Shown here: positions 8,320 to 23,748 of the stretch, piece by piece
How the letters are laid out: every line of letters starts with the position of its first letter
How positions within the stretch are numbered: the first letter of the stretch is position 1
DNA from: Burkholderiales bacterium
GTDB lineage: Bacteria > Pseudomonadota > Gammaproteobacteria > Burkholderiales > Ga0077523
Assembly (NCBI GenBank): GCA_022843925.1
Contig: JALHMS010000003.1
Location: forward strand, 184,440 to 248,439
Direction of reading: 5' to 3'
Length of the DNA stretch: 64,000 nucleotides
Made by a program: the position numbers and the translations under genes
Notes under the pieces: generated by a model
The model's input: the letters and a program-made list of their open reading frames with translations, nothing else
Database searches by the model: none
What the model was told of the DNA's origin: nothing

Positions 8320-8873
8320 GGATGCTCAGGCGCCTCCGGGTTTAGGGCTCCTCACGAAGCAGGGTGAGACACCCGAAGGCCGGTTCATGCCGAGCGTGGG
8401 CCCGTCGCAGCAGGGGCGTGCCCGGGCCCCCAAGCCTGTGAACATGTCGGCAGCACTATCGGGAGACTACGCATAGGGCAGTCTAGAAATATGTTCAGTA
8501 CCACTGAAAGCAGGTGACCAATGCGGAAGTACATGCGGAATCGCAAGCAATGTGGGTTCGACGAATGAGCGGTGGCACCCGACCTCGCAGGCGAAGCCTT
8601 GCTCGTGCCTTCCGTCGATCCGTGGCCTTGCCCTTCCGATGACATACTCTGACGTTCTGGCACCATAGCCGAGGTCCGGGACACCTGTGGGGCGTTCGAA
8701 CGACGGGATCGAATCGGGGCACGGCCTGATCGGCTTGTGTTGATGTCAAGAGCCCGCCACGCGTGCGGAGCGCTCGTGGTGCCGGCAGTCGTTCCCGGCG
8801 TGACGTCCGCACGGCGCCCGCCGTCGGGACGCGAGCACAGCAGGTATGCGTAACCATCGTATGGGAGGAACGA
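8320..8873. other. intergenic region, no gene supported
   Basis: About 550 bp between the amidase and the FkbM gene. It has a locally AT-richer patch near 8460-8515 and no REP unit. A long minus-strand frame across it runs antisense to the FkbM gene and is rejected. I see no convincing promoter, RNA or small gene. Confidence 0.4.
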
Positions 8874-9665
8874 ATGATCACTGCAGACGACTATCGCATC
8901 AAGACGGTACGAAGCCTCCTGCGCATCGCTGGCCCCTGGGGACTCCTTCGCTATCTTCTGTCGAAGGTGACAGGACGGGCGGTCGATGCCAGGGTCTACA
9001 TGGCGGCTGCGCCCGGGGTGCCCGCCCCCGTGAGCATCAGGCTGCCGAGCTCCGACGTCCTGACGTTCTGGCAGGTGTTCGTCGACCAGGAGTACGCCAT
9101 CTCGGTGCGCCGGCCGCCCAGGACCATCATTGATGCGGGCGCGAACATCGGACTTGCCTCCATCTACTTCGCGACCCGGTTTCCGGAGGCGCGGATCGTG
9201 GCGATCGAGCCTGAAAAGAGCAACTTCGAGATGCTTTGCAGGAACGTGAAGCCATACCGGAACATCGTGCCCGTCTGCGCGGCCATCTGGAACGAGAACA
9301 AGAGGATCAGCCTGGTCGATCCCGGGTTGGGCCACTCCGGATTCATGACGTTCGACCGCGCCGACGAAGGTGCGGGACAACCTCTGGAGCTGATCGACGC
9401 CGTCACCATTGCCCGGATCATGGACGACCACGGACTCGAGCACGTCGACATCCTGAAGATGGACGTCGAGGGCGCGGAGTCCGAGGTCTTCGAGGATCCG
9501 TTCTGGATCGGTCGCGTGGATTCGCTGATCGTGGAGCTTCATGAACGCATGAAGCCTGGCTCGAGCAGCAGCTTCAACCGGGCCGTGTCCGGATTCGCAA
9601 AGCGGTGGACGATCGGTGAGAACGTCTGTGTCACCCGGCTCGACGGTTGCCTTCTGGGCGCCTAG
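8874..9665 (+). CDS. FkbM-family SAM-dependent methyltransferase
   Basis: A 263-residue protein with a strong GGGAGGAA site just before ATG 8874. The SAM-binding glycine motif is DAGANIG (residues 87-93), then the acidic loop IVAIEPE and the VDILKMDVEGAE motif characteristic of FkbM enzymes. Family members O-methylate sugars or polyketide-type hydroxyls, often in glycan or exopolysaccharide clusters. Here the gene stands alone, so no substrate is suggested by context. The first 60 residues carry a basic, partly hydrophobic helix that may contact the membrane. Confidence 0.88.
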   Translation: MITADDYRIKTVRSLLRIAGPWGLLRYLLSKVTGRAVDARVYMAAAPGVPAPVSIRLPSSDVLTFWQVFVDQEYAISVRRPPRTIIDAGANIGLASIYFATRFPEARIVAIEPEKSNFEMLCRNVKPYRNIVPVCAAIWNENKRISLVDPGLGHSGFMTFDRADEGAGQPLELIDAVTIARIMDDHGLEHVDILKMDVEGAESEVFEDPFWIGRVDSLIVELHERMKPGSSSSFNRAVSGFAKRWTIGENVCVTRLDGCLLGA

Positions 9666-9734
9666 ACACCTGGGGCAGGATCCCCTGTCAGGACCCGGGC
9701 AGGAATGACGCGGACTCGTTTCACCACTTCTGTC

Positions 9735-9755
9735 GTCTGGGGTCAGGTCTCGTTT
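9735..9755 (+). repeat. solo copy of the RAYT upstream sequence
   Basis: TCTGGGGTCAGGTCTCGTTT here matches, with one gap and two changes, CTGGGGACAGGTCTTGATTT at 38915-38934 just upstream of the RAYT gene. It may be a scar of an excised or decayed RAYT-type element. The similarity is clear but short. Confidence 0.4.
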
Positions 9756-9924
9756 CTCGCCTCCGCGTCGTGACCGACTTCGATCGTAGGGCCGTGACGG
9801 GAACGACGCGGGACGGTTTCGCTCCGTGGCCGTGCAGATCGCCATCGGACGTGACACGGGTCGAGGGTGGCCCCGAGCGAGGACGTGCCGGAATCCTGCC
9901 CGCCATCACTGATATCCGAAAGTT

Positions 9925-9959
9925 CCGGCCGCTATCGGGAGTTGCTCCCGAATGGCCGG
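9925..9959. other. strong imperfect palindrome upstream of a PEP-CTERM gene
   Basis: CCGGCC (9925-9930) pairs with GGCCGG (9954-9959), and CGGGAG (9936-9941) with CTCCCG (9945-9950), around a 3-base loop. Between the stems are unequal bulges of 5 and 3 bases. There is no T run, so it is not a standard intrinsic terminator. It is 88 bp before the start at 10047 and could be an operator or a leader hairpin. The remaining gap from 9666 shows only the short repeat at 9735. Confidence 0.45.
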
Positions 9960-10046
9960 ACTTACGTGTCCTTTGTCGCACGTGTCCGGTATGGTGCCAA
10001 GCGTTCCTAAAGGAACCGACACCATCGAAAACGAGGAGACTGTGAA

Positions 10047-10682
10047 ATGACCAAGGACACATGGAGCACGCGCGCCCGTACTGCCGCATTGGCCATCGTC
10101 ATGGCGGCGAGCGTATATCCGGGCGGAGATGTCCGCGCAGGTATCACGTACGACGAAGCGACCAGTGGCGACCTTTCCGGGGACAAGGCGACACCCACCC
10201 CGCTGACATTCGCGGATGGCAGCAACGTGATCAAAGGCACGACGACGCGGAACGAGTTCGATCTGATCGCGGTGACGATCCCCTCGGCACTCCGTCTGAA
10301 CGCCGTCTTCCTCGATGCGATGGTCGGAAATCTGGCATTCATTGCAGTGCAGTCGGGCACGGTATGGACAGAGAACCTCGGTGCTGACATCACCACCGCG
10401 GAGAATCTCCTGGGATGGGCACACTTCGGGCCGCGCAACAACACGCTCGGCACCGACGTCCTGGACGACATGGGGGCTGGTGCGGGTGCAATCGGTTTCG
10501 CCGTGCCACTCGCGGCGGGCGACTACACCTTCCTCATTCAACAGACCGGTGGCTCGCTCGTCACGTACGAGTTCCGGTTCGAAGTCTCGCCCGTTCCGGA
10601 GCCGGCGACCTTCGGGACCCTGGCGGCGGGCCTCCTCGTAATCGGAACCGCGCTGCGTCGTCGAACGACCCGACGTCGCTGA
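10047..10682 (+). CDS. PEP-CTERM sorting-domain protein
   Basis: A 211-residue exported protein. GAGGAG lies 9-14 bases before ATG 10047. A signal peptide (AALAIVMAASVYPGGDVRA) precedes a body rich in Thr, Gly, Asp and Ala with no recognised enzyme motif, resembling small choice-of-anchor surface proteins. The C-terminus is a full sorting signal: PVPEPATF (about residues 182-189), a hydrophobic helix TLAAGLLVIGTAL, then RRRTTRRR. It should be exported by Sec and handled by an exosortase encoded elsewhere. A GC hairpin follows the stop. Confidence 0.88.
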   Translation: MTKDTWSTRARTAALAIVMAASVYPGGDVRAGITYDEATSGDLSGDKATPTPLTFADGSNVIKGTTTRNEFDLIAVTIPSALRLNAVFLDAMVGNLAFIAVQSGTVWTENLGADITTAENLLGWAHFGPRNNTLGTDVLDDMGAGAGAIGFAVPLAAGDYTFLIQQTGGSLVTYEFRFEVSPVPEPATFGTLAAGLLVIGTALRRRTTRRR

Positions 10683-10715
10683 AACCGCGACTCGATCACC
10701 CAGACCGTTGGATAC

Positions 10716-10749
10716 GCCTCCGCCGTCCTCCCTGAATGACGGTGGAGGC
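10716..10749 (+). terminator. GC hairpin downstream of PEP-CTERM gene
   Basis: GCCTCCGCCGTC (10716-10727) pairs with GACGGTGGAGGC (10738-10749), 12 bp with one G-T pair and a 10-base loop, 34 bp after the stop at 10682. There is no T tract, so it is a likely but not textbook terminator. The rest of the gap to 11255 (about 500 bp) holds nothing I can support. Confidence 0.5.
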
Positions 10750-11255
10750 GGCTCGATGGGCAGACAGGGATCGCGAGGCACGACCCCGTGCGCCGCGTGA
10801 CCGAGCCCGACGGCATCGCGCGGTGGACCCGCATCCTGCCAGTCAACCCGACACGCGAACACCGGCGGCGATAAGCCGGCCGGGCACTGCCCTGGTTCGC
10901 GCAGCAGGGAAACGCCGACACGCGGATCATCCGGGCTCGCCGGCATCGCCCCGATGCCGCCCTTGAGCGCGCCCGCAACGTTACCCTGCGCGCCGAACGA
11001 TCGAACGCGGTCTTGCGACGCTCTGAGGCCTTTCGGACGACGCATGCGCCAGCGGTCGTGGGGGCGGCCGGTCCTTCCTGATGGCGTGGGACGCTGTTCG
11101 AGGCGCTTCCTCTCCTGGGGGTCCAGCAGGTTGACCATCGGACGTGCGCCATCGACCATTGCGACCAAAGCCCGTACCCGCCCCATCCCCCAACCCCAAC
11201 GTCGCAAGCCCGCCGGAAGGCGGAACTCGACGCACACCACAGGAGTGTGCCGTTC

Positions 11256-11846
11256 ATGGTTCACCACCGATTTCCCGCCCGCATCGCCGAAACGCTGCAT
11301 GCGTTCGCATCCCTCGCGCTGATCACGGGTCTCGCAGGCTGCGTCACGCCCCCACGAACCGGCTCGAATCCGGTGCCGCCTGAGACGATCAATCTGCCGC
11401 TGATCCAAGGCTGGTTCGAAGGACGCCGCGCCTACTACGTCACCACCGACACATCCGATGCCGCGACGTCGGGCATGATGGGTGCGAACTACGTACCGCG
11501 ACTCGCCAACACCTTGCCGCCCGAACCCAAGGTCCCGGGCACGCCTTCCAGCACGGATCGCATCTACAAGTTCCCCAACGGCGAGCAGGCGAGTGTCCTT
11601 CCGTCGGCGCCCGAGCCCCTCGGCGCCGGCAACACGAGCAATGCGTACAGCCCGCTCTGGCAGGTCGTCAACGTGACGTGGAATCCAGGGGTCGCGCCGG
11701 TCCTGTTGCGGTCCGAGCAGGACGTCCTCGAGGCCGAAGATGCAGGCCGCGTGACCGTCGAACCCACGCGCCTCGTGGTCAACTGCCCGGTGGTGCGGAT
11801 CGAGGGGGAACTGCTTCCCGGTGCCTCGCTCCCGAAGGGGCGCTGA
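11256..11846 (+). CDS. secreted lipoprotein of unknown function
   Basis: A 196-residue protein. ATG 11256 is chosen over the GTG at 11247 because the AGGAG at 11241-11245 is correctly spaced only from the ATG. The N-terminus ends in a lipobox LAGC (Cys 29), so it should be a lipoprotein. The mature part (YYVTTDTSD, MGANYVPRLAN, IYKFPNGEQASVLPSAPEP, YSPLWQVVNVTW) resembles secreted DUF-type proteins with a single beta domain, but I cannot name the family with confidence. It converges on the LysR gene. Confidence 0.75.
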   Translation: MVHHRFPARIAETLHAFASLALITGLAGCVTPPRTGSNPVPPETINLPLIQGWFEGRRAYYVTTDTSDAATSGMMGANYVPRLANTLPPEPKVPGTPSSTDRIYKFPNGEQASVLPSAPEPLGAGNTSNAYSPLWQVVNVTWNPGVAPVLLRSEQDVLEAEDAGRVTVEPTRLVVNCPVVRIEGELLPGASLPKGR

Positions 11847-11967: not shown

Positions 11968-12897
11968 CTAGATCCCCCTGACCCGGCCGCCGCCACTGAA
12001 TGAGGGCTCGAGAAAAATCTGGCGGAAGTAGTCCCGGAATGCGGACATCGTGGGCGCCAGCTCGGCGCCCTTCCTCCAGGCGAGGCCGACCGTCATCGCC
12101 GGTATCGCATCCTTCAGGTTCACCGTCTCGATGCGTTTCCCCTCCAGCGACCACGGGCGGTAGACCATGTCGGAGAGGATGGAGACGCCCCATCCGTTCG
12201 CCACCATGCTGCGCACAGCCTCGACGGACGAGGTGCGCAGCCGGATGTTCGGTTGGAACGGGGTGCGACCCCAATAGCGCAGCGCGGTCTGCGCCGCCTC
12301 GTCCACCGTGAGCATGATGTAGGGCTCGCGCGCGACCTCGGAGAGCGTGATTTCCGGTAGTTCGAGCAACGGATGTCTGGCCGACACCCAAAGCCTTCGT
12401 TGGGACCCGAAGAACGTCTCGCTCGCCAGCTCCGGACTGACCAGATTCGAGGTGAGCAGCACTGCCATGTCGAACCGGTTGCCCAGGAGACCTTCTTCGA
12501 TCGCGTCGCGGCTCAATTCATAGGCATTGACCGTGATGCGGGGGTAGAGCTGGGAGAACCGCTGGAGGTGATAAGGAAGAAAGTACCCCAGCACCGTATA
12601 GGTGGTGGCCACGCTCAGAGTGCCGTCCAGCCGGCTGTCTGCCGTGGGGACCCGCAGAGCCTCGTCCACGGCCGAGAGGATGGTGTACGCATGCCCCAGG
12701 AACTTGCGCCCCGCCTCCGTGAGCTCCATGCCTGAATTGGTTCTCACGAACAACGCACCGCCGACCTCGGTCTCCAGTTCCTTGATGGCTGTCGTGACCG
12801 CCGACTGGGAAATGCTCAGTTGGATCGCGGCCTGCGACACCTGCCCGAGTTCGGCAGTGGCCACGAAGTACTTCAGCTGCCTGATCGATAGAGACAT
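11968..12897 (-). CDS. LysR-type transcriptional regulator, divergent from the pxp/biotin operon
   Basis: A 309-residue LTTR from ATG 12897; a GTG at 12921 would add 8 residues. The winged helix is at the N-terminus (IRQLKYFVATAELGQVSQAA, then SQSAVTTAIKELE), followed by a periplasmic-binding-type effector domain (GTLSVATTYTVLGYFLPYHL onward). It is divergent from pxpA with 265 bp between starts, the usual layout for a LysR regulator and its target. It most likely senses the substrate or an intermediate of the amide/lactam pathway encoded at 13163-21909. The effector is unknown. Confidence 0.92.
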   Translation of the reverse strand: MSLSIRQLKYFVATAELGQVSQAAIQLSISQSAVTTAIKELETEVGGALFVRTNSGMELTEAGRKFLGHAYTILSAVDEALRVPTADSRLDGTLSVATTYTVLGYFLPYHLQRFSQLYPRITVNAYELSRDAIEEGLLGNRFDMAVLLTSNLVSPELASETFFGSQRRLWVSARHPLLELPEITLSEVAREPYIMLTVDEAAQTALRYWGRTPFQPNIRLRTSSVEAVRSMVANGWGVSILSDMVYRPWSLEGKRIETVNLKDAIPAMTVGLAWRKGAELAPTMSAFRDYFRQIFLEPSFSGGGRVRGI

Positions 12898-13024
12898 CAC
12901 ATATTCCAGATTCGCAGCCACCGTTCATCGGGAATCCAGATCGCTGCCGCGCACCACTTTGGCCGGAATCGGGCAACAAACTGACCTTTCGGCACTATTT
13001 TCATGCGGGCGGCGTGCAACCCTT

Positions 13025-13162: not shown

Positions 13163-13921
13163 ATGACACTGGCTATCAATTGCGACATGGGCGAGGCCTA
13201 CGGCCTCTACAGGTGCGGGGACGACGAAGGGATCATGCCGTTCATCACGCTCGCGAACGTGGCGTGCGGCTTCCACGCCTCCGACCCCGTGGTGATGCGG
13301 AAGACCGTCCGCCTCGCAAAGCACCACGGCGTGGGTGTCGGCGCCCATCCGTCGTACCCCGACCTCCAGGGCTTCGGCCGGCGCGAGATGAAGATGACGC
13401 GCGACGAGCTCTCCGCGTGCCTCATCTACCAGGTGGGCGCGCTCAAAGCCTTCCTCGACGCCGAGGGCATGCCGCTCAATCACATCAAGCCGCACGGTGC
13501 CCTCTACGGTGTGGCCGCCCGTGACGAGAGCGTGGCCAATGCGATGGCGGACGCGGCTGAAGTCTTCGGCGTTCCGCTGCTGGGCATGGCGGGTACGAAG
13601 CACGAAGAGGTCTACACGAAGCGCGGCATCCCTTTCCTCGCCGAGTACTTCACCGACCTCGACTACAACGACGACGGTTCTCTGATCATCACCCGGGAGC
13701 ACGTGGGCAAGGACCCCGCGGATGCCGCCAAGCGATCGTTACGTGCCGTACAGCACGGCACGGCAGTCTCGGTGAATGGCAACGAGATCCCGATGCGCGC
13801 CGATTGCGTATGCGTGCATTCGGACACCCCCGGTGCGGTCGACCTTGCCCGAGCCGTGCGGGACGCATTGCGACCCTGGCTCGGCAAGGAAACTGCCGCC
13901 AGCACCTCCGCCGCGCACTGA
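13163..13921 (+). CDS. pxpA: LamB/YcsF family protein, 5-oxoprolinase subunit A-like
   Basis: A 252-residue protein; AGGAAGAAG precedes ATG 13163. Family landmarks are intact: INCDMGEAYG at the N-terminus, LANVACGFHASDP, GVGAHPSYPD and HIKPHGALYG. In E. coli PxpA works with PxpB and PxpC as an ATP-dependent 5-oxoprolinase. Here the same three subunits are encoded together with a biotin carboxylase and a biotin carrier, so the reaction may be biotin-dependent and the substrate may differ from 5-oxoproline. First gene of the operon, divergent from the LysR gene. Confidence 0.93.
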   Translation: MTLAINCDMGEAYGLYRCGDDEGIMPFITLANVACGFHASDPVVMRKTVRLAKHHGVGVGAHPSYPDLQGFGRREMKMTRDELSACLIYQVGALKAFLDAEGMPLNHIKPHGALYGVAARDESVANAMADAAEVFGVPLLGMAGTKHEEVYTKRGIPFLAEYFTDLDYNDDGSLIITREHVGKDPADAAKRSLRAVQHGTAVSVNGNEIPMRADCVCVHSDTPGAVDLARAVRDALRPWLGKETAASTSAAH

Positions 13922-13935
13922 CGCACCTGCCCGCC

Positions 13936-14526
13936 GTGCCGCACGTTCTCTACAACGGCCCCACCAGCCCCTTCGGTCGCATGACCCGTGTCGTCGGTCT
14001 AGAACTGGGCATTGCGGTGGAGGAACGTGCGATCGACGTCTACACCGCGGAGTTCCTCGACAAGTTCAATCCCCTCCGCCAGATCCCGACGCTCCAGACC
14101 GCGAGCGGCGACGTCCTGTACGACAGCCGCGTGATCTGCCGCTGGTTCGACAGCGTCTCGGATCGCGCGAAGCTCATCCCGGTCGACCACCAATGGGAGG
14201 TGGAACGGCGCTGGGCGCTCGCCATCGGCCTGATGGAGGCGGGGCTTGGCCGGCGCATGGAGATCCTGCGACCCGAAGGCGAAAAGAGCCCGGGCCACAT
14301 CGCCAAGCTGGAAGCGCGGATCGATCGCGCGATCGATCAGCTCGAATTGGAAGCGGCTGCGTTGCGTGACGCCGGCATGCGCATGGATGCCATCGCCGCC
14401 GCCGTCGCGCTGGAGTACACCGATTTCCGGTACACGCGCGACTGGCGTGCACGCTGTCCGTCGCTCGAAACGTGGCTCGCGGCTTTCGGCACCCGCCCGA
14501 GCCTCCAGACAACCCGCCCCCACTAG
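13936..14526 (+). CDS. glutathione S-transferase family protein
   Basis: A 196-residue cytosolic protein with GTG start at 13936, 14 bases after the pxpA stop; no good ribosome site is seen, so coupling to pxpA is likely. The N-terminal thioredoxin fold shows VLYNGPTSPFGRMTRVV, RQIPTLQTASGDVLYDSRVICRWFD (cis-Pro and the glutathione-gripping DSR turn). The C-terminal helical domain contains YTDFRY. The normal Cys/Ser at the active position is Ser (TSPF). A GST in a pxp/biotin operon is unexpected; its role is unknown. Confidence 0.85.
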   Translation: MPHVLYNGPTSPFGRMTRVVGLELGIAVEERAIDVYTAEFLDKFNPLRQIPTLQTASGDVLYDSRVICRWFDSVSDRAKLIPVDHQWEVERRWALAIGLMEAGLGRRMEILRPEGEKSPGHIAKLEARIDRAIDQLELEAAALRDAGMRMDAIAAAVALEYTDFRYTRDWRARCPSLETWLAAFGTRPSLQTTRPH

Positions 14527-14548
14527 CCCCCCGCATCAGGAGCAGGCC

Positions 14549-14794
14549 ATGGCCCACCACGAGGTTCTCTCTCCGCTTCCGGGCACGTTCTACCGCAAGC
14601 CCGCGCCCGACGCAGAAGTCTTCGTGCAGGAAGGCGCCAGCGTGAAGGTAGGCGATGTCATCGGCCTGGTGGAGGTGATGAAGCAGTTCAGCGAGGTTCA
14701 CGCCGACGCCGCCGGCCGGCTCGTCCGGTTCATGGTAGAGAACGAGGATGCCGTCGAGCCCGGCCAGCCGATCGCGATGATCGAGATCGGCTGA
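14549..14794 (+). CDS. free-standing biotin carboxyl carrier protein (AccB-like)
   Basis: An 81-residue protein with AGGAGCAGG before ATG 14549. It is only the biotinyl domain: SPLPGTFYRKPAPDAEVFV, SVKVGDVIGLVEVMK, FMVENEDAVEPGQPIAMIEIG. Lys45 in EVMK is the expected biotin attachment site. AccB of fatty acid synthesis normally has about 150 residues with a Pro/Ala-rich linker; this short form lacks it. It sits directly before the biotin carboxylase gene and should be its carrier. Confidence 0.9.
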   Translation: MAHHEVLSPLPGTFYRKPAPDAEVFVQEGASVKVGDVIGLVEVMKQFSEVHADAAGRLVRFMVENEDAVEPGQPIAMIEIG

Positions 14795-14811
14795 CGTCGA
14801 GCGAGCGCATC

Positions 14812-16212
14812 GTGCCGATCCGCAGACTGCTGGTGGCCAATCGCGGCGAGATCGCCGTCCGCGTCATTCGAGCCGCCCGTGAACTCGGCATCCAGGCCGT
14901 CGCGGTCCACAGCGACGCCGATCGCGAGAGCCTCGCCGTGCGCATGGCCGACGTCGTGGTGCCGATCGGCCCGCCCCAGGCCGCGAAGAGCTATCTCAAC
15001 GTCGACGCGCTCATGAAGGCCGCGGTCGATTCCGGGGCCGATGCCGTGCATCCCGGCTACGGATTCCTTTCCGAGAATGCCGCCTTTGCCGAGCGCGTGG
15101 AGGCGGCCGGCCTCGTGTTCGTCGGTCCGACGCCGGAGGCGATCCGCACCATGGGCAACAAGTCCCTCGCGCGCGAGACCGCGGCGAAGGCGGGCGTGCC
15201 CTGCGTACCCGGCAGCGATGGCGTCGTCGAGTCGGTCGAAGAAGCCGTGTCGGTCGCCGGCACGATCGGCTGGCCGATCATGATCAAGGCATCGGCCGGC
15301 GGTGGCGGGCGAGGTATCCGGGTCGCGAACGACGCGGACGAACTGCGCAGCCAGATGGTCACAGCGCAGGCCGAGGCCCAGGCGGCCTTCGGTGACAGGA
15401 GCGTGTACCTCGAACGCTTCATCCGCCGTGCGCGGCACGTCGAGGTCCAGGTGCTCGGGGATGGCAGGGATGCGATCCATTGCTTCGAGCGCGAATGCTC
15501 GCTGCAACGCCGCCGCCAGAAGATCCTCGAAGAGGCGCCGTCACCCGCACTCTCGCCCGAGACACGCGCGCGGCTTTGCGAATCGGCGGTGCAACTGGCC
15601 CGATCGGTGGGCTACCGCGGTGCCGGCACCCTCGAGTATCTCTACGACGACGAATCGCGCGAGTTCTTCTTCATCGAGATGAACACGCGCATCCAGGTGG
15701 AACACCCGATCACCGAAATGATCACCGGCATCGACCTGGTGCGCGAGATGATCCGTATCGCCGGCGGCGAACCGCTCCGGTTCCGGCAGAGCGACATCGT
15801 CATGCGTGGCGTGGCGATCGAGTGCCGCATCAACGCCGAGGATCCCGACCGGAACTTCATGCCGAGCCCGGGGAAGGTGCACGAGGTCATCCTGCCCGGC
15901 GGCCCCGGCGTGCGGATCGACTCGATGCTGTATCCCGGCTACACGGTGCCGCCCTGGTACGACTCGCTGCTCGCGAAGCTCGTGGTGCACGCCGAAGACC
16001 GCCCCGCGGCGATCGCGCGCATGCGGCGAGCGCTCGGCGAACTCCGCATCGAGGGCATCAAGACGACGCGCGGCCTGCATCTCGCACTGATGGACGAAGC
16101 GCGTTTCCAGGCCGCCGATTTCCACACCAATGCCCTCGAGGCCTGGCTCGCGGCTCGCCCGGCCGAGCCGCCCGCCACCACACCCGCCCCCGTTTCGCCC
16201 ACTTCCTCCTGA
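14812..16212 (+). CDS. biotin carboxylase (AccC-like) of the pxp operon
   Basis: A 466-residue ATP-grasp enzyme from GTG 14812, 17 bases after the carrier gene. The N-terminal domain opens RRLLVANRGEIAVRVIRAA; the ATP lid is IMIKASAGGGGRGI (about 156-169); the catalytic segment EMNTRIQVEH (about 289-298) is complete. It carboxylates biotin on the carrier using bicarbonate and ATP. The neighbours PxpB and PxpC correspond to the carboxyltransferase part of urea carboxylase, so this is more likely dedicated to that complex than the housekeeping AccC. A housekeeping accBC pair would be expected elsewhere in the genome. Confidence 0.92.
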   Translation: MPIRRLLVANRGEIAVRVIRAARELGIQAVAVHSDADRESLAVRMADVVVPIGPPQAAKSYLNVDALMKAAVDSGADAVHPGYGFLSENAAFAERVEAAGLVFVGPTPEAIRTMGNKSLARETAAKAGVPCVPGSDGVVESVEEAVSVAGTIGWPIMIKASAGGGGRGIRVANDADELRSQMVTAQAEAQAAFGDRSVYLERFIRRARHVEVQVLGDGRDAIHCFERECSLQRRRQKILEEAPSPALSPETRARLCESAVQLARSVGYRGAGTLEYLYDDESREFFFIEMNTRIQVEHPITEMITGIDLVREMIRIAGGEPLRFRQSDIVMRGVAIECRINAEDPDRNFMPSPGKVHEVILPGGPGVRIDSMLYPGYTVPPWYDSLLAKLVVHAEDRPAAIARMRRALGELRIEGIKTTRGLHLALMDEARFQAADFHTNALEAWLAARPAEPPATTPAPVSPTSS

Positions 16213-16221
16213 GGACCGTCC

Positions 16222-17106
16222 ATGGCAGCCGCAACCGCCCGCTACAGCTTCGGTGCCGACGAGCACGTGTTCGTCGAGCTGTCCGAGGACATGTCGCTCG
16301 AGTCGTTCTTCAAGGGCATGGCGATCACCGACGCGCTGGCGAAGCGCAAGGTGCCCGGCGTGACCGAGATCTGCCCCGCGAACGCGTCGTACCTGGTGCG
16401 CTTCGATCCGGACGTGATCCATCCGGACGAGATGCTCGGGATTCTCCAGCAGCTGGAGCGCGAGCTTGGGGACGCCGAGCTCGAGGTTCCCACCCGGATC
16501 ATCGAAGTACCGGTGTACTACAACGATCCATGGACGCGCGAGACCCTCATGCGCTTCCGCGAGCGGCACCAGGATCCAACTGCCACCGACCTCGAGTACT
16601 CCGCGCGTGTGAATCACCACGCATCGGTGGAATCGTTCATCGACGCCCACGCGGGCAGCCCGTGGTTCGTGTCGATGGTCGGCTTCGTGGCAGGCCTGCC
16701 GTTCCTGTTCCAGATGGTCGAGCGCGCCAGGCAGATCGAGACGCCCAAGTACCTGCGGCCGCGCACCGACACGCCGAAGCTCACCATCGGTCACGGCGGC
16801 TGCTTCGGCGCCATCTACTCCGTGCGCGGCGCGGGCGGCTATCAGATGTACGGCATCACGCCGGCGCCCATCTTCGACCCGGCGCAGAAGCTGCCGTACT
16901 TCCGCGACTTCATGTGCTTCTTCAAGCCGGGCGACATCGTGAAGTACCGGAAGATCGATCGGGACGAATACGACCGCATGAATGCGCAGGTCGAGGCCGG
17001 CACCTTCGATCTGCGGATCCGCCCGGTGTCGTTCTCGCTCACGAAATTCCTGGCCGATCCGACCGGCTACAACAAGCATCTGGAGGGCATCCTCTATGGC
17101 CATTGA
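16222..17106 (+). CDS. pxpB: PxpB/KipI-like subunit (allophanate hydrolase subunit 1 family)
   Basis: A 294-residue protein. It has the AHS1 fold: N-terminal RYSFGADEHVFVELSEDMS, LVRFDPDVI, a strand RIIEVPVYYND, the VGFVAGLPFLF motif and TIGHGGCFGAIYS. It is longer than typical KipI (about 220-240) because of an extended C-terminal part from about residue 215. In urea carboxylase the equivalent domain forms half of the carboxyltransferase. The stop overlaps the pxpC start by 11 bases, a sign that the two subunits are made together. Confidence 0.88.
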   Translation: MAAATARYSFGADEHVFVELSEDMSLESFFKGMAITDALAKRKVPGVTEICPANASYLVRFDPDVIHPDEMLGILQQLERELGDAELEVPTRIIEVPVYYNDPWTRETLMRFRERHQDPTATDLEYSARVNHHASVESFIDAHAGSPWFVSMVGFVAGLPFLFQMVERARQIETPKYLRPRTDTPKLTIGHGGCFGAIYSVRGAGGYQMYGITPAPIFDPAQKLPYFRDFMCFFKPGDIVKYRKIDRDEYDRMNAQVEAGTFDLRIRPVSFSLTKFLADPTGYNKHLEGILYGH

Positions 17107-18070
17107 GATCGTCAAGCCGGGACTGGCGACCACGGTCCAGGACGCCGGACGGCCCGGCTACTACAACGTCGGCATTCCGTTGTCGGGTGCCCTCGACCAG
17201 TACTCCTTCCGCTGCGCGAACCTGCTCGTCGGCAACGACGAGAACGCTGCAGTGCTCGAGTGCACGTTGCTGGCGCCGGAGCTTGCCTTCCATGCACCCG
17301 CCCTCGTGGCGATCACCGGTGCGGAGGCCAATCCGAAGGTCAACGGCGTCGCCATGCCCCGGAACGAGGCCTTTGCCGTGAAGGCGGGCGACACGCTCGG
17401 CTTCGACTTCATGCGGATCGGAGCGCGGGCTTACATCGCGGTGGCCGGCGGAATCGACGTGCCGATGATCCTCGGCAGCCGGTCGACCTACGGACTCGGC
17501 GCCTTTGGCGGCTACCAGGGGCGCAAGCTCGCGACGGGCGACAGGCTGCCGATCGGTGTGCCGACGGCAAAGGCCCGGGCCGGACGGGTGCTGCCCGCGG
17601 ATCTCACGATGCCGCTGCCGAAGGAAACCGAACTGCGCGTCCTGCCCGGCCTCTACTTCCATCGCATCACCGATGCCTCGGCGGATACGTTCTTCGCCGA
17701 CACGTGGGCCGTGGCGCCGGAAGCGGATCGGATCGGCTATCGCTACAAGCAAGGGCGGCCGCTCCAGTGGCGCGAGCGGGCCCAGCCGTTCGGTGCGGGC
17801 TCGGACCCGTCGAACATCGTCGACGCGGGCTATCCATACGGCTCGATCCAGGTGCCCGGCGGGGTCGAGCCGATCATCCTGCATCGCGATGCGGTCTCGG
17901 GAGGCGGCTACGCCATGATCGGAACGATCATCAGCGCCGACATGGACAAGATCGCCCAGATGCAACCCAACTACAAGGCCAGGTTCGTGCGCGTGGACAT
18001 GCATGCCGCGCTCGCCGCCCGTGCCGAGTACAAGGCGCAACTCGCCCGCGTCCGGACCGCGCTCGGCTGA
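17096..18070 (+). CDS. pxpC: PxpC/KipA-like subunit (biotin-dependent carboxyltransferase family)
   Basis: A 324-residue AHS2-family protein starting at ATG 17096 inside the end of pxpB. The N-terminus is the family signature KPGLATTVQDAGRPGYYNVG followed by IPLSGALD. ITGAEA and VAGGIDVP, GSRSTYGLGAFGGYQGRKL and a VPGGVEPIIL segment follow. With PxpB it forms either the ATP-dependent 5-oxoprolinase core or, with the biotin proteins encoded here, a urea-carboxylase-like carboxyltransferase. Context favours the second reading. Confidence 0.9.
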   Translation: MAIEIVKPGLATTVQDAGRPGYYNVGIPLSGALDQYSFRCANLLVGNDENAAVLECTLLAPELAFHAPALVAITGAEANPKVNGVAMPRNEAFAVKAGDTLGFDFMRIGARAYIAVAGGIDVPMILGSRSTYGLGAFGGYQGRKLATGDRLPIGVPTAKARAGRVLPADLTMPLPKETELRVLPGLYFHRITDASADTFFADTWAVAPEADRIGYRYKQGRPLQWRERAQPFGAGSDPSNIVDAGYPYGSIQVPGGVEPIILHRDAVSGGGYAMIGTIISADMDKIAQMQPNYKARFVRVDMHAALAARAEYKAQLARVRTALG

Positions 18071-18129: not shown

Positions 18130-19203
18130 ATGCAGAAAACCTTCACCAAGTCCGCGCTCGCGCTGTGCGCCTCGGCCCTGCTCAGCGGTGCTGCCTCCGC
18201 TGCCGACTGGTTCCCCTTCAAGGTCGAGGAGATGAAACCCGCGTTCTCCCCTGACGCCACGCCGACGCTGGTCGATTACGTCCCCCTCGCGAAAGCTTCG
18301 AAGAAGTGGGACATCTGCGTGTCCTTCCCCCACATGAAGGACGCCTACTGGCTCGGCGTCGACTACGGCGTGGCGGAGGAAGCCAAGCGCCTCGGCGTGA
18401 AGATGCAACTGGTGGAAGCCGGCGGTTACACCAATCTCGCGAAGCAGATCTCGCAGATCGAGGACTGCGTCTCCCGCGGCGCGCAGGCGGTCATCATCGG
18501 TGCCATCTCGGCCGACGGCCTCAACGGCCTCATCAAGACCATCACCGCCAAGAAGATCCCTGTGATCGACGTGATCAACGGCATCAACTCGCCGGACATC
18601 TCGGCGAAGTCGCTGGTGAGTTTCCAGACCATGGGCGCGCAGGCAGGCGAGTTCATCGCCAAGATGCACCCGAAGGGCGGCGCCGCGGTCAAGGTGGGTT
18701 GGTTCCCCGGCCCGGCCGGCGCCGGTTGGGTGGAAGCCGCGCACAAGGGGTTCATGGATGCGACCAAGGATTCCGCCCTGGTCATCCTCGAACCCAAGTA
18801 CGGTGATACCGGCAAGGAAGCGCAGACGAAGCTGATCGAGGACGTTCTTCAGGCGCACCCGGACGTGGCCTACCTCGTGGGTCCGGCGGTCAACTCCGAA
18901 GCGGCCGTGGCGGTCCTGCGGGAGCGCAATCTCGACAAGAAGGTGAAGGTCGTCGCGTTCCATACCAACCCCGGCGCCGTGGACGGCATCATGAAGGGTC
19001 GTATCCTCGGTGCACCGTCCGACTCGATGGTGATCCAGGGCCGCATCGCGATCGACCAGGCCGTGCGCATTCTCGAGGGCAAGGAGTACATGAAGCACGT
19101 CGGCCCGAAGATCTTCATGGTGGATCAGGACAACATCAAGAAGCTGCCCCGCGAGATCCTGCTGGCCCCGGCGGACTACAAGCCGGTGTTCAAGGTCAAC
19201 TGA
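18130..19203 (+). CDS. TorT-like periplasmic binding protein of a ribose-type ABC importer
   Basis: A 357-residue exported receptor. ATG 18130 follows GGAGACTC; a signal peptide (SALALCASALLSGAASAADW) is cleaved near residue 24. It has the type-I periplasmic-binding fold: ICVSFPHMKDAYWLGVDYGV, IEDCVSRGAQAVIIGA, IPVIDVINGI, VAYLVGPAVNSEAAVAVL. Best family fit is TorT/sugar-binding. It follows pxpC by 59 bp and precedes the ATPase and permease genes, so it should deliver the operon's substrate. TorT senses trimethylamine N-oxide in E. coli, but that ligand is not implied here. Confidence 0.88.
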   Translation: MQKTFTKSALALCASALLSGAASAADWFPFKVEEMKPAFSPDATPTLVDYVPLAKASKKWDICVSFPHMKDAYWLGVDYGVAEEAKRLGVKMQLVEAGGYTNLAKQISQIEDCVSRGAQAVIIGAISADGLNGLIKTITAKKIPVIDVINGINSPDISAKSLVSFQTMGAQAGEFIAKMHPKGGAAVKVGWFPGPAGAGWVEAAHKGFMDATKDSALVILEPKYGDTGKEAQTKLIEDVLQAHPDVAYLVGPAVNSEAAVAVLRERNLDKKVKVVAFHTNPGAVDGIMKGRILGAPSDSMVIQGRIAIDQAVRILEGKEYMKHVGPKIFMVDQDNIKKLPREILLAPADYKPVFKVN

Positions 19204-19360
19204 TCGTCTGACGTCGCTCTTGGTCGCAAGCCCCCTGACCGACCCTGCCCCGATGTTCTCCGAGGATGGTGCGGCGATGTCCGCTCCCAGCCTTGGTACG
19301 GTGTGGCGACGGGCGGTTGGGGGCCCCCAGAAATGCAGTGCCTAGAGAAACCAGTTGCCC

Positions 19361-20869
19361 GTGTCCGCATCCGACCTCATCGAGACCGTCGCACTCACCA
19401 AGCACTATCCGGGGGTGAAGGCTCTCGATGGCGTCGACTTCTCGCTCGCCCCCGGCGAAGTGCATGTGCTCTTCGGTGAGAACGGCGCCGGCAAGTCCAC
19501 GCTGATCAACCTGCTGGCGGGCGTGAACCAACCGACCTCCGGGCAGATCCTGATGGAAGGTCGCGAGGTCCGTCTCCATTCGGTGCTCGATGCCCGGAAG
19601 CACGGGGTGAGCGCAGTCTTCCAGGAGTTCTCGCTCGTGCCCACGCTCACGGTGGCCGAGAACCTGTTCCTCGGGGACGAGTCCCCACGCCACGGTTTCA
19701 TCGATCGCCGGGCCTTGGCGGCCCGGGCACGCGAGCTTCTCGCCGATCTCCAGTTCGATCTCGACCCCGCGCGACGCGTATCGACGCTGAGCCGCGCGGA
19801 ACAGCAGATGGTCGAGATCGCGAAGGGTTTCCGCAGCCGGCTGCGCGTGTTGATCCTCGACGAGCCCACGGCTTCCCTCACCGACCGCGAGACGGAGCGC
19901 CTCTTCACGCTCATCGCACGCATCCAGGCCGAGGGCGCGGGCGTCATCTACATCACCCACCGCATGCAGGAGATCGCGCGCGTCGGCGACCGCGTCACCG
20001 TCCTGCGCGACGGCCGGAAGATCGGCACCGTCGACGCGAAGGCGACGTCGGAGGATCGCCTCATCGAGATGATGACCGGGCGGACCATCTCGGAGATCTA
20101 TCCGACCATTGCCGCGAATCCCGGCGAGATACTCCTCGAAGTTGAAGGTCTCGCGTCAGGGGCCGGCGTGCGCGATGCGAGCATCACGGTGCGCCGTGGC
20201 GAAGTGGTCGGTCTGGCCGGACTCGTGGGCTCGGGCAAGTCGGAACTGATGCGCGCCGTGTTCGGCGTCGACCGGGTCACGGCCGGTAGTGTTCGCTTCA
20301 AGGGCGTGGACGTCACGCACGCACGGCCGGGCGAGATGCTCCGGCGCGGATTGTTCTACCTGCCGCCCGACCGGAAGGCCGAAGGTCTCGTCCTCGCGTT
20401 CACGGCGCGAGCCAACATCGCCCTGCCGGCGTTGCGTTCGAAGCTGAAGGGTCGCTTCGGATTGCTCTCGGGCAAGAGGCGCGAGGCGCTGACACGCACC
20501 GCCGGGCAGCAGGTGGAACTGGCGGAGCGCAACGCCGGGCGCGCCGTCGCAGTACTGTCCGGCGGCAACCAACAGAAAGTGCTGTTCGCGAAGGGTCTCG
20601 GCATCAATGCCGATCTGTACGTGCTCGACGAACCGACCGTCGGCGTGGACGTCGGCACGCGAAGTGCGCTCTACACGCTCATCAAGCGCCTCTGCGAAGG
20701 CGGCGCCGGCGTGGTCCTGGTGTCATCGGACCTGCCTGAAGTGCTTCACCTGTCGCATCGCGTCTACGTGACGCGTCTCGGTACCATCGCGGGCGAACGG
20801 CACGGTGCGGACATCAACGAGGCATCGCTGCTGGGACTCTTCTTCGAGCGCGAGCGTACGGCGGCCTGA
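19361..20869 (+). CDS. ribose-type ABC transporter ATP-binding protein (two ATPase domains)
   Basis: A 502-residue RbsA/MglA-type protein. GTG 19361 is used as start; TTG 19355 two codons earlier is nearly as good (AGAGAAA at 19344-19350). Domain 1 has Walker A GENGAGKST (about 39-47), signature LSRAEQQMVEIAKG and Walker B LILDEPTA. Domain 2 has a degenerate P-loop (GLVGSGKSE) with signature LSGGNQQK and YVLDEPTVGVD. The layout is as expected for carbohydrate-uptake family 2 ATPases. It pairs with the permease at 20896. Confidence 0.93.
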   Translation: MSASDLIETVALTKHYPGVKALDGVDFSLAPGEVHVLFGENGAGKSTLINLLAGVNQPTSGQILMEGREVRLHSVLDARKHGVSAVFQEFSLVPTLTVAENLFLGDESPRHGFIDRRALAARARELLADLQFDLDPARRVSTLSRAEQQMVEIAKGFRSRLRVLILDEPTASLTDRETERLFTLIARIQAEGAGVIYITHRMQEIARVGDRVTVLRDGRKIGTVDAKATSEDRLIEMMTGRTISEIYPTIAANPGEILLEVEGLASGAGVRDASITVRRGEVVGLAGLVGSGKSELMRAVFGVDRVTAGSVRFKGVDVTHARPGEMLRRGLFYLPPDRKAEGLVLAFTARANIALPALRSKLKGRFGLLSGKRREALTRTAGQQVELAERNAGRAVAVLSGGNQQKVLFAKGLGINADLYVLDEPTVGVDVGTRSALYTLIKRLCEGGAGVVLVSSDLPEVLHLSHRVYVTRLGTIAGERHGADINEASLLGLFFERERTAA

Positions 20870-20895: not shown

Positions 20896-21909
20896 ATGGC
20901 GGAAGCATCCCCCGGCACCCCCGGAAACGTCCTCGAGAAACTGTTCATCCGCATGGGCGTGCTGCCCGTGCTGATGGTGCTGGCGCTGATCGTGTTCTCC
21001 CTGATGTCGGAGCAGTTCCTGCGCATCGACAACCTCGTGAACCTCGTGCGTCAGTCGGTCTACCTGATCCTGGTCTCCCTGGGGCAGATGCTGGCGCTCG
21101 TCACCGGCGGGTTCGACCTTTCCGTGGGAACCATCCTCGCGGTGACATCCGTCGTATCGGCGATCGTCATGGCGCATTTCTTCGGCGCCGACCCCAACGC
21201 CGTGTGGTTCGCCATCAGCATCGGCTGCTTCGCCGGCCTGCTCGCCGGCGCGGCGGTCGGGGTGGTCAACGGCCTCGGCGTCGCCTACCTCGGCGTCTCG
21301 CCCTTCATCATGACGCTGGGGACGCAGTCCGTCGGCTTCGGGATCGCGCTGCTGATCACCGGCGGCGTGCCGGTGTCCGGGCTCCCGGGGGAACTGAGCG
21401 AGACGCTCGGCTTCGGGCGGATCCTCGGTGTACCGATTCCGATCCTCGTGACGGCGGCGGTGGCGGTCATGTTCTACATCCTCATGACCCGCACGGCGCG
21501 CGGCAGCTATCTCCTCGCGGTCGGGGGCAATCCCAAGGCGGCTGCCCTGTCGGGCGTGAACGTGCGCACGACCCTCCTCGTCGCGTACGTGCTCTGCGCG
21601 TTGGTCACCGCCGTCAGCGGTCTGCTGCTCACCGCACGGGTCGAGAGCGGCGAGGCCAACATCGGCGGCACCATGGCCCTGGAATCGATCGCCGCGTGCG
21701 TGATCGGCGGTGTCAGCCTGCGGGGCGGCATCGGCCGCGTGGAGAACGTCGTCCTGGGCGCAATCTTCATCGTGCTCGTGCAGAACGGCATGAACCTCTC
21801 CGAAGTGGGTTCCTACCTGCAGATGATCGTGCTGGGCACGCTGCTGATCATCGCCGTGATCGCCGATCAGATACGGCACCGGATGATCGCGGGCGGCGTG
21901 GGGCTCTGA
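20896..21909 (+). CDS. ribose-type ABC transporter permease
   Basis: A 337-residue inner-membrane protein with 8-10 hydrophobic helices, among them LPVLMVLALIVFSLM and ALVTGGFDLSVGTILAVTS. The last of these is the GGxDLSVG motif of the RbsC/BPD_transp_2 family. SYLLAVGGNPKAAALSGVNV is the cytoplasmic loop that contacts the ATPase. It follows the ATPase gene by 26 bp and ends the transport block. Its presence next to pxp genes points to uptake of an amide, lactam or nucleobase-like solute rather than necessarily a sugar. Confidence 0.92.
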   Translation: MAEASPGTPGNVLEKLFIRMGVLPVLMVLALIVFSLMSEQFLRIDNLVNLVRQSVYLILVSLGQMLALVTGGFDLSVGTILAVTSVVSAIVMAHFFGADPNAVWFAISIGCFAGLLAGAAVGVVNGLGVAYLGVSPFIMTLGTQSVGFGIALLITGGVPVSGLPGELSETLGFGRILGVPIPILVTAAVAVMFYILMTRTARGSYLLAVGGNPKAAALSGVNVRTTLLVAYVLCALVTAVSGLLLTARVESGEANIGGTMALESIAACVIGGVSLRGGIGRVENVVLGAIFIVLVQNGMNLSEVGSYLQMIVLGTLLIIAVIADQIRHRMIAGGVGL

Positions 21910-22176
21910 CAGGCCGGATTGCCGGGGCACCCGTCCCAAACCGACCCACCTTCGCGCCGGCGCCATTTTCCGCTGACAGCCTGCCCTCGGCGGCTCGAGG
22001 CGTCGCATCGCGATGCCGATCCTGCAGGCGCCCCGGGGTCATTAGGCCTATCTTTCCGGCCGATCGCGTCATCGGGTCGTCACGCGCCTGGGCCAACCTG
22101 CAGTTCCGTGTCGTCGCAGCCCGACGTGACACTCGACCCGTCCTTGCAGCGGTCCAAGAACCGCCGGAGATCCTTC

Positions 22177-23748
22177 ATGACCCACATGCAAATCAAGCTG
22201 TCGGGCATCGCGCTCGGCACCATGCTCGCCATCGGCAGCGTATCGCTGTCCCAGGCGCAGACCATCGTCAACGGCACCGTCTTCACCGTCCAGGAACTCG
22301 TGGGGGTCGGGCGCATCGCCGCCAACCTTCGCGACGAGCACGGCGAGACCTTCGGCTCCATCTCCGGGCTGGTCGCCGACCCGTCGTCCTGGGCTCGCAA
22401 TGGCGACAGCTACAGCGGCATCTTCTACGCTGCACCGGATCGCGGCTACAACATCGCCGGGACCATCGACTACTCCGCGCGCCTCAACCGCCTCGCGGTG
22501 AACTTCACGCCGGCGGCGACCGGCGCCACGGGGCTCGCCCAGAACCAGATCGGTCTCACGCTCACGCAGTCGACCATCCTCTACGAGACGCTGGCCGGCG
22601 GTGGCCAGAGCCCGTTCAGCGGCATCGATCCCAAGCCCGGTGGCGTGGCCACCGGAGGCGCGCGTGCGGCCACCGGCCTGCTGCCAGAACTCCCCCAGGG
22701 CCACAACGGCAAGCTGTCCCTCGACGCCGAGGGCATCGTGCTGCTCGCCGACGGCTCCAGGCTCGTGAGCGACGAGTACGGGCCGTCGATCTACCGCTTC
22801 TCGGCAGGCGGCGAGTTCCTCGGCGCATTGCCCGTGGCAGCGTCAGTGCGTCCGATCCGCAACGGCGTCACGGACTACAGCTCGAACAACGCCACGGTCG
22901 GCCAGCCCGCGCCGACCCCGGGGAATCCGACGTTCGGTCGCCAGAACAACCAGGGATTCGAGGGGTTGTCGATCTCGCCCGACGGCGACACGCTGTTCGT
23001 CGCGCTGCAGAGCGCGGCACGCCAGGACGGCGGTACCGGCGGTGGCAGCTCGACCCGCAACAACACGCGACTCTTCACCTACGACATCCGCGATCTCGAC
23101 GCCATCGCGCTCACCGGCGAGTACGTGGTGCAGCTGCCCAAGTTCCAGCAGGGTGCATCGACCCTGGTGGCCGCGCAGAGCGAGGTGCTGGCACTCTCCG
23201 ACACCCAGTTGCTCATCCTGCCTCGCGACAGCAACGGATTTGCGGTGGGCACGGAGGAATCGAAGCTGCGTCGGGTCGACGTCATCGACATCAGCACGGC
23301 GACCAACATACTCGGCGAGAGCTACGAGGGCACCATCGCGCCGGGCGGCGTGCTGAATCCGGCGATCACGCCGGCGCTGTACACACCGTTCCTCGACATC
23401 AACGACAACGCGCAGCTGGCGCGCTTCGGCCTCGTCAACGGCGTCGTGCCCGGACTGGACAACCTGTCCGAGAAGTGGGAAGGCCTCGTCCTGCTGCCCA
23501 CACTGGAGGCAGATCGCCCGAACGACTACTTCCTCTTCGTGGCCAACGACAACGATTTCGCCACGACGGATGGCTTCCATGCGGGCGCCGCGTACAACGA
23601 CGGCAAGGACATCGACACGATGTTCCTGGCCTACCGCGTGACGATCGGCCCGGTCCCGGAGCCGGAAACGTACGCGCTGATGCTCGTCGGGTTGATCGGA
23701 GTGGCAGGTATCGCGCGGAAGCGCAGGCAGTGCGTCGCCATCGGATAG
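22177..23748 (+). CDS. PEP-CTERM protein with phytase-like esterase domain
   Basis: A 523-residue exported protein; ATG 22177 follows GGAGATCC. A signal peptide ends at QAQ (about residue 28). The body matches the esterase-like-activity-of-phytase family: SISGLVADPSSW, GIFYAAPDRGYN, SLDAEGIVLLADGSRLVSDEYGPSIYRF, NQGFEGLSISPDGDTLF. This is a beta-propeller that binds metal and hydrolyses phospho- or other esters. C-terminus: VPEPETYALM (about 493-502), a hydrophobic helix and ARKRRQ. Possibly acts in extracellular phosphate release with the 5'-nucleotidase-like gene that follows. Confidence 0.88.
   Translation: MTHMQIKLSGIALGTMLAIGSVSLSQAQTIVNGTVFTVQELVGVGRIAANLRDEHGETFGSISGLVADPSSWARNGDSYSGIFYAAPDRGYNIAGTIDYSARLNRLAVNFTPAATGATGLAQNQIGLTLTQSTILYETLAGGGQSPFSGIDPKPGGVATGGARAATGLLPELPQGHNGKLSLDAEGIVLLADGSRLVSDEYGPSIYRFSAGGEFLGALPVAASVRPIRNGVTDYSSNNATVGQPAPTPGNPTFGRQNNQGFEGLSISPDGDTLFVALQSAARQDGGTGGGSSTRNNTRLFTYDIRDLDAIALTGEYVVQLPKFQQGASTLVAAQSEVLALSDTQLLILPRDSNGFAVGTEESKLRRVDVIDISTATNILGESYEGTIAPGGVLNPAITPALYTPFLDINDNAQLARFGLVNGVVPGLDNLSEKWEGLVLLPTLEADRPNDYFLFVANDNDFATTDGFHAGAAYNDGKDIDTMFLAYRVTIGPVPEPETYALMLVGLIGVAGIARKRRQCVAIG

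Follow-up and report, generated by a model that had tools for sequence, protein, structure and literature searches.

A predicted four-protein biotin-dependent carboxylase system linked to a PxpA-type hydrolase, with lactams as probable substrates, in a Burkholderiales bacterium

The window analysed, a 64,000-nucleotide stretch of a Burkholderiales bacterium genome (GenBank assembly GCA_022843925.1, contig JALHMS010000003.1, positions 184,440 to 248,439 of the forward strand), contains an operon in which genes for a PxpA-family hydrolase, a biotin carboxyl carrier, a biotin carboxylase (BC) and two proteins of the KipI and KipA families lie together. The original prediction, made from the sequence alone, had described consecutive genes for PxpA, a glutathione S-transferase (GST), an 81-residue carrier with an EVMK motif, a complete BC, and KipI-like and KipA-like proteins. 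This gene row was confirmed by the open reading frames (ORFs) and by profiles, as was the 11-bp overlap between the last two genes (positions 17096–17106). The genes of the operon are as follows.

13163–13921, + strand: PxpA (LamB/YcsF), hydrolase subunit (PF03746, 307 bits)
13936–14526, + strand: GST-like protein, accessory (GST_N_2, 48.6 bits; GTG start read by eye)
14549–14794, + strand: stand-alone biotin carboxyl carrier, 81 aa, EVMK motif, biotin Lys45 (PF00364; NF005457/PRK07051)
14812–16212, + strand: BC, AccC-like, PRK12833 type, 466 aa (NF009471)
16222–17106, + strand: KipI-like carboxyltransferase subunit (CT-CD), Lys176 (PF02682, 125 bits)
17096–18070, + strand: KipA-like carboxyltransferase subunit (CT-AB) (PF02626, 300 bits)

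In urea carboxylase, BC, KipA-like, KipI-like and biotin domains are joined in one chain, and PxpABC of E. coli is an ATP-dependent 5-oxoprolinase without biotin. The products of ten window genes (the operon and its neighbours) were scanned with profiles. PxpA passes NF003814 (283.3 bits, cut-off 226). The BC has all three BC domains, scores 808 bits with NF009471/PRK12833 (cut-off 686) and also passes the AccC model TIGR00514 (657.4 bits, cut-off 626.5). The carrier scores 129 bits with NF005457/PRK07051 (cut-off 87) and falls below the AccB model TIGR00531 (81.3 bits, cut-off 115.2). Both of these families are named acetyl-CoA carboxylase. The KipI-like protein is below the PxpB equivalog TIGR00370 (75.7 bits, cut-off 145.55) and scores higher with urea carboxylase (102.3 bits), and the KipA-like protein is below the PxpC equivalog NF045499 (221.7 bits, cut-off 500). 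Since both proteins are below the equivalog cut-offs, 'PxpB' and 'PxpC', as they were called originally, are on these scores loose names.

The KipI-like protein was used to scan public genomes (at least 597 pattern matches), and the best 80 of at least 587 related loci were taken as relatives of the operon; many of the 80 loci are short or cut. Genes for the carrier (73 loci), BC (77), the KipA-like protein (79) and PxpA (73) recur among them, and the gene row is therefore not a chance arrangement. PxpA and the KipI-like gene lie on one strand in 72 of the loci, and 70 of these also include both biotin components. Of the other two, L021 has the carrier and no BC, and L077 has neither.

The linkage was also followed from the side of the BC in even draws of genomes, the genome of the window being included each time. 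Of the 150 genomes drawn across the phylum, 4 have a BC that passes the PRK12833 cut-off, as do one of 185 across the class (the genome of the window alone) and 11 of 250 across the order; the operon is sparse but distributed across Proteobacteria. The three other BC sites of the phylum draw (L136, L137 and L138) all adjoin KipI-like and KipA-like genes, and a KipI-like gene is found within ~2 kb of 10 of the 11 sites of the order draw; the eleventh site is that of L129 (G357), described below. By manual count of the match list, the 250 genomes of the order draw have 121 PF02682 places, of which 72 with at least 165 bits were taken as ordinary PxpB. The other 49 comprise 37 in open frames of ~800 to 1400 codons, taken as urea carboxylase, and 12 shorter ones, two of which are pieces of urea carboxylase (G478, and contig C45 of the genome of the window). 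All 10 stand-alone KipI genes of the urea-carboxylase type lie beside a PRK12833-type BC, whereas the 72 ordinary PxpB genes are all away from the 11 BC sites.

Parts of the K. lactis urea amidolyase (KlUA) structure report propose Lys1605 as the probable general base in carboxyl transfer; K1605A is described there as severely inhibiting (PMC5770610). The corresponding position was counted along alignments, of a bacterial urea carboxylase with the K. lactis chain and then with the KipI-like protein, and the TKYN motif that includes Lys1605 in the bacterial alignment coincides with TPKYL at Lys176. All 93 relatives and all 13 urea carboxylases aligned have Lys at position 176, where each of the 29 ordinary PxpB proteins has Arg. 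Position 207 is Tyr in the relatives and urea carboxylases and Trp in all 29 ordinary PxpB proteins; Arg and Trp as the mark of the PxpB type come from this analysis and not from the literature. An insert with R115 is also common to the KipI-like protein and urea carboxylase. In the KipA-like protein, which is colinear with residues 477–787 of the urea carboxylase structure 3va7, Asp is found at position 243 in 99% of the 90 relatives and in every one of 18 urea carboxylases, and is replaced by Ser in all 34 ordinary PxpC proteins. R228 and G235 are likewise of the urea-carboxylase type, ordinary PxpC being gapped at these positions in 34 and 33 of 34 sequences, respectively. Left out of the alignment counts were the window copies (L002, L005 and L128), L135 (taken as the same record as L036), L001 (the same gene as L157), L008 and L150 (from the BC rows), and matches under the coverage limits.

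The same division was seen in quick trees, which give single support values and place ordinary PxpB and PxpC on long branches. In the KipI tree, 46 relatives form one group (support 99) and 12 urea carboxylases another (100), and the two are jointly set apart from 11 PxpB proteins (Shimodaira–Hasegawa-like approximate likelihood ratio test, 100). In the KipA tree, 38 relatives (99) stand beside urea carboxylase, joined at 95, apart from PxpC. Groups were assigned by locus for the alignment counts and the KipI tree, and by ORF length for the KipA tree, in which L001, labelled urea carboxylase, is in fact the ordinary PxpC of the genome of the window. One further locus, L130 (G444, 6259–9727), has the order KipI-KipA-carrier-BC; its KipA-like protein takes a basal place in the urea carboxylase group (95), and its KipI-like protein takes the same place with a support of only 56 in a KipI tree grouped by ORF length. 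Perhaps L130 is an independent split biotin system.

Because K176 is kept, ordinary PxpB having Arg in its place, and because of the operon linkage, the KipI-like and KipA-like proteins very likely constitute a biotin-dependent carboxyltransferase. Arg at the base position of ordinary PxpB would fit a biotin-free reaction. Lys versus Arg provides a one-residue marker that divides biotin-type KipI from ordinary PxpB. A plain PxpABC was rejected as an identification of the operon on the Lys176/Tyr207 versus Arg/Trp difference and because neither protein reaches its equivalog cut-off.

The biotin Lys of the carrier is kept in 88 of 88 rows, which include AccB of the genome of the window (L006) and of E. 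coli (L141). In all 94 BC rows, among them five other BCs of the same genome, that of L129 and E. coli AccC (L141), the residues K116, K159, E201, H209, K238, E276, E288, N290, R292, E296 and R338 of E. coli AccC are conserved; these eleven positions we take to form the BC active site. The marks of the biotin-dependent carboxylase superfamily, a carrier Lys and complete BC active-site residues, are thus present. Together with K176 and the operon linkage they strongly support the multi-subunit biotin-dependent carboxylase that was originally predicted.

In the BC tree, 27 BCs of the operon type (92) are sister to the AccC proteins from E. coli and from the genome of the window (84), and 17 BCs of urea carboxylases form a separate group (100), joined by the BC L007 of the genome of the window (98). 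The BC is, from its placement, of the AccC type and not derived from urea carboxylase. As the BC groups with AccC while the carboxyltransferase groups with urea carboxylase, the system is a mosaic, in which a carboxyltransferase of the urea-carboxylase type is fed by a BC of the AccC type. The expression 'split urea carboxylase' used in the original prediction therefore fits the carboxyltransferase and not the BC, and a strictly split urea carboxylase was rejected, its BC being in the AccC clade.

Urea carboxylase (TIGR02712; the K. lactis enzyme, PDB 3va7/5i8i) resembles the operon in that both carboxyltransferase subunits are colinear with it and have the general-base Lys, the R115 insert and KipA R228/D243, and in that carboxylation of an amide-type nitrogen is the expected chemistry. 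It differs in being one chain of ~1200 aa that includes BC, carboxyltransferase and carrier, whereas the operon has four separate ORFs, a BC of the AccC-side clade, a PxpA partner and, in some relatives, lactam genes nearby. That the operon encodes a urea carboxylase acting on urea or guanidine is hardly credible, even though its carboxyltransferase is nearest to that of urea carboxylase: the genome of the window already has a fused urea carboxylase (L004/L008 and L003, apparently one gene divided by contig ends), the BC is of the AccC type, PxpA would be without a role, and some relatives have neighbouring genes of the lactam type.

With AccBC the operon shares the BC and carrier families and the present database names. 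It differs in that the carrier is below the AccB cut-off and the BC forms a separate subclade. No AccA/AccD-type carboxyltransferase partner was found in the ten genes scanned, the remaining genome not having been searched for AccA/AccD. Six other BC sites are present in the genome of the window, one of them in urea carboxylase. Another, L006, is a BC with an adjoining carrier, a separate AccB-AccC pair whose BC groups with E. coli AccC. It had been allowed at the outset that the operon genes might simply be the fatty-acid enzymes if the genome had no other accBC; such a pair exists, and assignment of the operon to fatty-acid-synthesis AccBC was rejected for this reason. Biotin genes occur close to some of the 80 related loci (BioY at 5, BioD at 10 and BioA at 8; one BioY and one BioD were confirmed). 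A BC 77% identical to that of the window is located at L129 (G357, 8163–9542) among genes that by eye encode acyl-CoA synthetase, thiolase and acyl-CoA dehydrogenase, without KipI or KipA, and represents the same BC type in another role.

The operon belongs to a larger unit than originally noted, as a divergent LysR gene and genes for a TorT-like protein and for an ATP-binding cassette (ABC) transporter ATPase and permease recur in some relatives.

11968–12921, − strand: LysR-type regulator, divergent (PF03466/PF00126)
18130–19203, + strand: TorT-like periplasmic binding protein (NF008185, 405 bits, cut-off 200)
19355–20869, + strand: ABC transporter ATPase, sugar-type (PF00005)
20896–21909, + strand: ABC transporter permease (PF02653)

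A LysR-like gene (at least 45% identity) is found in 62 and a TorT-like gene in 23 of the 80 related loci. The GST gene is inside the operon only in the nearest relatives (L012, L013 and partly L016), and lies beside PxpA in L065 (Lichenifustis). A promoter scan of the operon gave one promoter-like site, the same as in shuffled sequence, and a terminator scan gave no terminator-like site, fewer than in shuffled sequence.

On this evidence, the operon probably encodes a four-protein biotin-dependent carboxylase that, together with a hydrolase, opens a lactam. The AccC-like BC would use ATP and bicarbonate to carboxylate the biotin on the 81-aa carrier. Carboxybiotin would then swing to the KipI-like/KipA-like carboxyltransferase, where Lys176 would serve as the base and the ring nitrogen of the lactam would receive the carboxyl group, much as urea does in the urea carboxylase reaction. 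PxpA would hydrolyse the N-carboxylated, activated ring; an N-carboxylactam should be more readily hydrolysed than the lactam itself. The resulting carbamate would lose CO2 to give an omega-amino acid, for instance gamma-aminobutyric acid (GABA) from 2-pyrrolidone or 5-aminovalerate from valerolactam, and the product would be used via GabT and GabD where those genes exist. The ABC transporter may take up the substrate. Biotin-dependent carboxyl transfer in the first two steps is supported by the residues and groupings described above, ring opening by PxpA is suggested by its family, and the loss of CO2 and the cargo of the transporter are conjectured. N6, D8, E11, H38, D41, H62, K109 and H111 of PxpA each occur in 95% or more of the 114 rows compared, which include 29 ordinary PxpA sequences; the core residues match those of ordinary PxpA.

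The substrate is suggested by genes that neighbour the operon in relatives. A CapB-like gene is near 14 of the 80 related loci, and all 10 CapB-like genes tested (that of L073 among them) exceed the caprolactamase-beta cut-off of 1000 bits. At L013, a near relative with 88% identity to the window in the KipI-like protein, CapB and CapA follow directly after the operon, both over the cut-offs. At another locus (L066, 15–7502), two tandem CapA/CapB-like pairs are located directly upstream of the operon. GabT (GABA transaminase) is near 8 of the 80 loci and in L021 lies between the transporter and PxpA; the 6 GabT proteins tested all exceed TIGR00700. Because their best models differ between loci (PRK08088, PRK07495 and PRK06777), GabT was probably recruited more than once. 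GabD (succinate-semialdehyde dehydrogenase) is near three loci, downstream in L020 and L026 and upstream on the other strand in L056, and was confirmed by profile in L026 and L056; GabD was counted at half length or more, which excludes partial matches in L030 and L045 and weak matches (27–31%) in L051, L076 and L079.

The control consisted of 20 ordinary pxpBC loci of genomes in the order sample, one spanning 12.7 kb and the others 18 kb, and none of the 20 has GabT, GabD, CapA, CapB, BioY, BioA, BioD or TorT. One control locus (L150) includes a BC and a carrier, and its BC groups with AccC. CapB is found at 12 of 59 related loci with full flanks compared with 0 of 20 controls (p 0.03). A lactam is a likely substrate. 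The original prediction of an amide or lactam is supported by the lactam genes near some relatives, and the choice can be restricted to lactams whose opening would yield GABA or 5-aminovalerate. More tentatively, at somewhat less than an even chance, a lactam of the C4 or C5 size is suggested. The fuller proposal, which we consider evenly balanced, is of a biotin-dependent lactamase: stable five- and six-membered lactams would be N-carboxylated by a urea-carboxylase-type carboxyltransferase with its own AccBC-like pair, and PxpA would open the N-carboxylactam.

5-Oxoproline is less likely as the substrate because an ordinary PxpABC is encoded elsewhere in the genome of the window (L157) and ordinary PxpB is present in 7 of 10 sampled genomes that have the biotin type. 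A biotin-dependent 5-oxoprolinase, in which 5-oxoproline would be carboxylated and not phosphorylated on its way to glutamate, would agree with the match of the PxpA core residues to ordinary PxpA and with the three sampled genomes of the biotin type that show no ordinary PxpB. GabT/GabD and caprolactamase neighbours would be ill-suited to a glutamate product, and we regard this alternative as unlikely. Compared with E. coli PxpABC, the operon shares a hydrolase of the PxpA family, the KipI/KipA pair and an expected overall opening of a lactam ring, and differs in the Lys and Tyr in place of Arg and Trp in the KipI-like protein, in its own carrier and BC, and in the scores below the PxpB and PxpC cut-offs.

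Several observations weigh against biotin-dependent opening of a lactam as the role of the operon. The first is the sparseness of the operon among genomes. At L077 (Pseudomonas sp. WS 5079, 9168–11799), genes for PxpA, a KipI-like protein with K176 and a KipA-like protein are present, and in that genome no carrier over the PRK07051 cut-off and no BC over the PRK12833 cut-off was found; in the genome of L021, a metagenome bin, the carrier is present and no BC over the PRK12833 cut-off was found. Either AccBC serves in these cases, or the system runs without biotin, or the loci are decaying or ill assembled. Both loci speak against a strict need for the BC, and L077 is an unexplained exception. 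They would suit a biotin-free PxpABC linked to an acc-type pair of a fatty-acid or acyl-CoA carboxylase, as would the L129 BC among acyl-CoA genes and the NCBIfam names of the carrier and BC. Such an arrangement is nevertheless very improbable in view of Lys176 in place of the Arg found in all 29 ordinary PxpB proteins, the linkage (70 of 72 related loci, and each of the 10 stand-alone KipI genes), the separate AccBC in the genome, the lack of an AccA/AccD-type gene among the ten scanned, and the biotin genes near some loci.

Other points against concern the lactam. No lactam genes are among the ten window genes scanned, including CapA/CapB (HyuA/HyuB), and they are missing from most related loci too; the genome of the window does have CapB-like genes, which lie on different contigs and do not reach the cut-off. 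CapAB opens lactams itself and may accompany a system with a different substrate. GabT is found at 6 of 59 full-flank loci and 0 of 20 controls (p 0.33, not significant), so its link is not proven by the control alone and rests on the place of GabT within the operon and on the differing GabT types. The loci share descent, so that the counts are not independent, and the controls are from a single order. PxpA comprises two subtypes, 58–87% and 41–48% identical to PxpA of the window, which may indicate two substrates. HyuA/HyuB genes of a non-CapAB type lie beside L068, L080, L083, L084 and L094, and the CapA-like protein of L084, the only one of that type tested, scores just 520 bits where the caprolactamase cut-off is 1000. 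A permease gene lies beside 29 of the 80 loci that matches the NCS1 type, a family that moves cyclic amides, only weakly (15.7 bits, cut-off 23.5). These HyuA/HyuB and permease genes would be expected if the carboxylase and PxpA acted on another cyclic or open amide, such as hydantoin, succinimide or a creatinine derivative. Caprolactamase and GABA transaminase are the strongest annotated neighbours, and such a substrate is accordingly rated improbable.

The proposed lactam-opening route would parallel, with biotin added, the ATP-driven, bicarbonate-requiring reaction of the CapAB/OplAB caprolactamases. Parts of two reports describe a bicarbonate requirement of CapAB and OplAB and discuss carboxyphosphate (PMC8453981, PMC11033972). 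CapAB and OplAB belong to other protein families, and the activating group described in those reports is phosphate or carboxyphosphate, with no part for biotin. In the part of the second report concerned with gamma-butyrolactam, only trace action of OplAB is given (PMC11033972). Genes PA0492–PA0496 of P. aeruginosa are named similarly to those of the operon, with a biotin-requiring enzyme, a BC and two 'allophanate hydrolase' genes. The sequence compared here was that of strain PA7 (L089), and the PAO1 genes PA0492–PA0496 were likened by gene names only. Passages of three papers call their precise function unknown (PMC6249292, PMC5521831, PMC8768829), and in a passage of one of these PA0493–PA0496 is treated as an operon under fatty-acid synthesis (PMC6249292).

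Elsewhere in the window, a PEP-CTERM-like tail (VPEP...R) was seen on several predicted exported proteins (10047–10682, 21919–23748, 24010–26088 and 28378–29301, all on the + strand), which include 5'-nucleotidase-like and CHRD-like proteins (families assigned by eye, starts not settled). A 979-aa MalT-like ATPase/regulator is encoded at 30059–32998 (+ strand) near an epoxide-hydrolase-like gene (both assigned by eye).

The original interpretation is thus supported at the level of sequence. The parts of the system are known families, and neither their assembly nor the proposed reaction was found described among the open-licence literature matches listed. Part of a 2011 study of BC, in which the broader group of urea-carboxylase-type carboxyltransferases was described as hypothetical genes with no known function, left open whether they work with other BCs or stem from a different reaction (PMC3199775). 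The operon ties such proteins to a BC of the AccC type. Should the substrate prove to be a lactam, a class of genes that at present carry the names acetyl-CoA carboxylase, allophanate hydrolase or 5-oxoprolinase would need new assignments, and PA0492–PA0496 of P. aeruginosa would gain a function. An enzyme for gamma- and delta-lactams would also be gained; in part of a 2023 paper the authors state that they knew of no earlier enzymatic cleavage of these lactams (PMC11033972). The proposed reaction, if true, would be a third ATP-driven chemistry for lactam opening besides those of PxpABC and CapAB/OplAB, and the enzyme would possibly be the missing hydrolase of gamma-butyrolactam (2-pyrrolidone).

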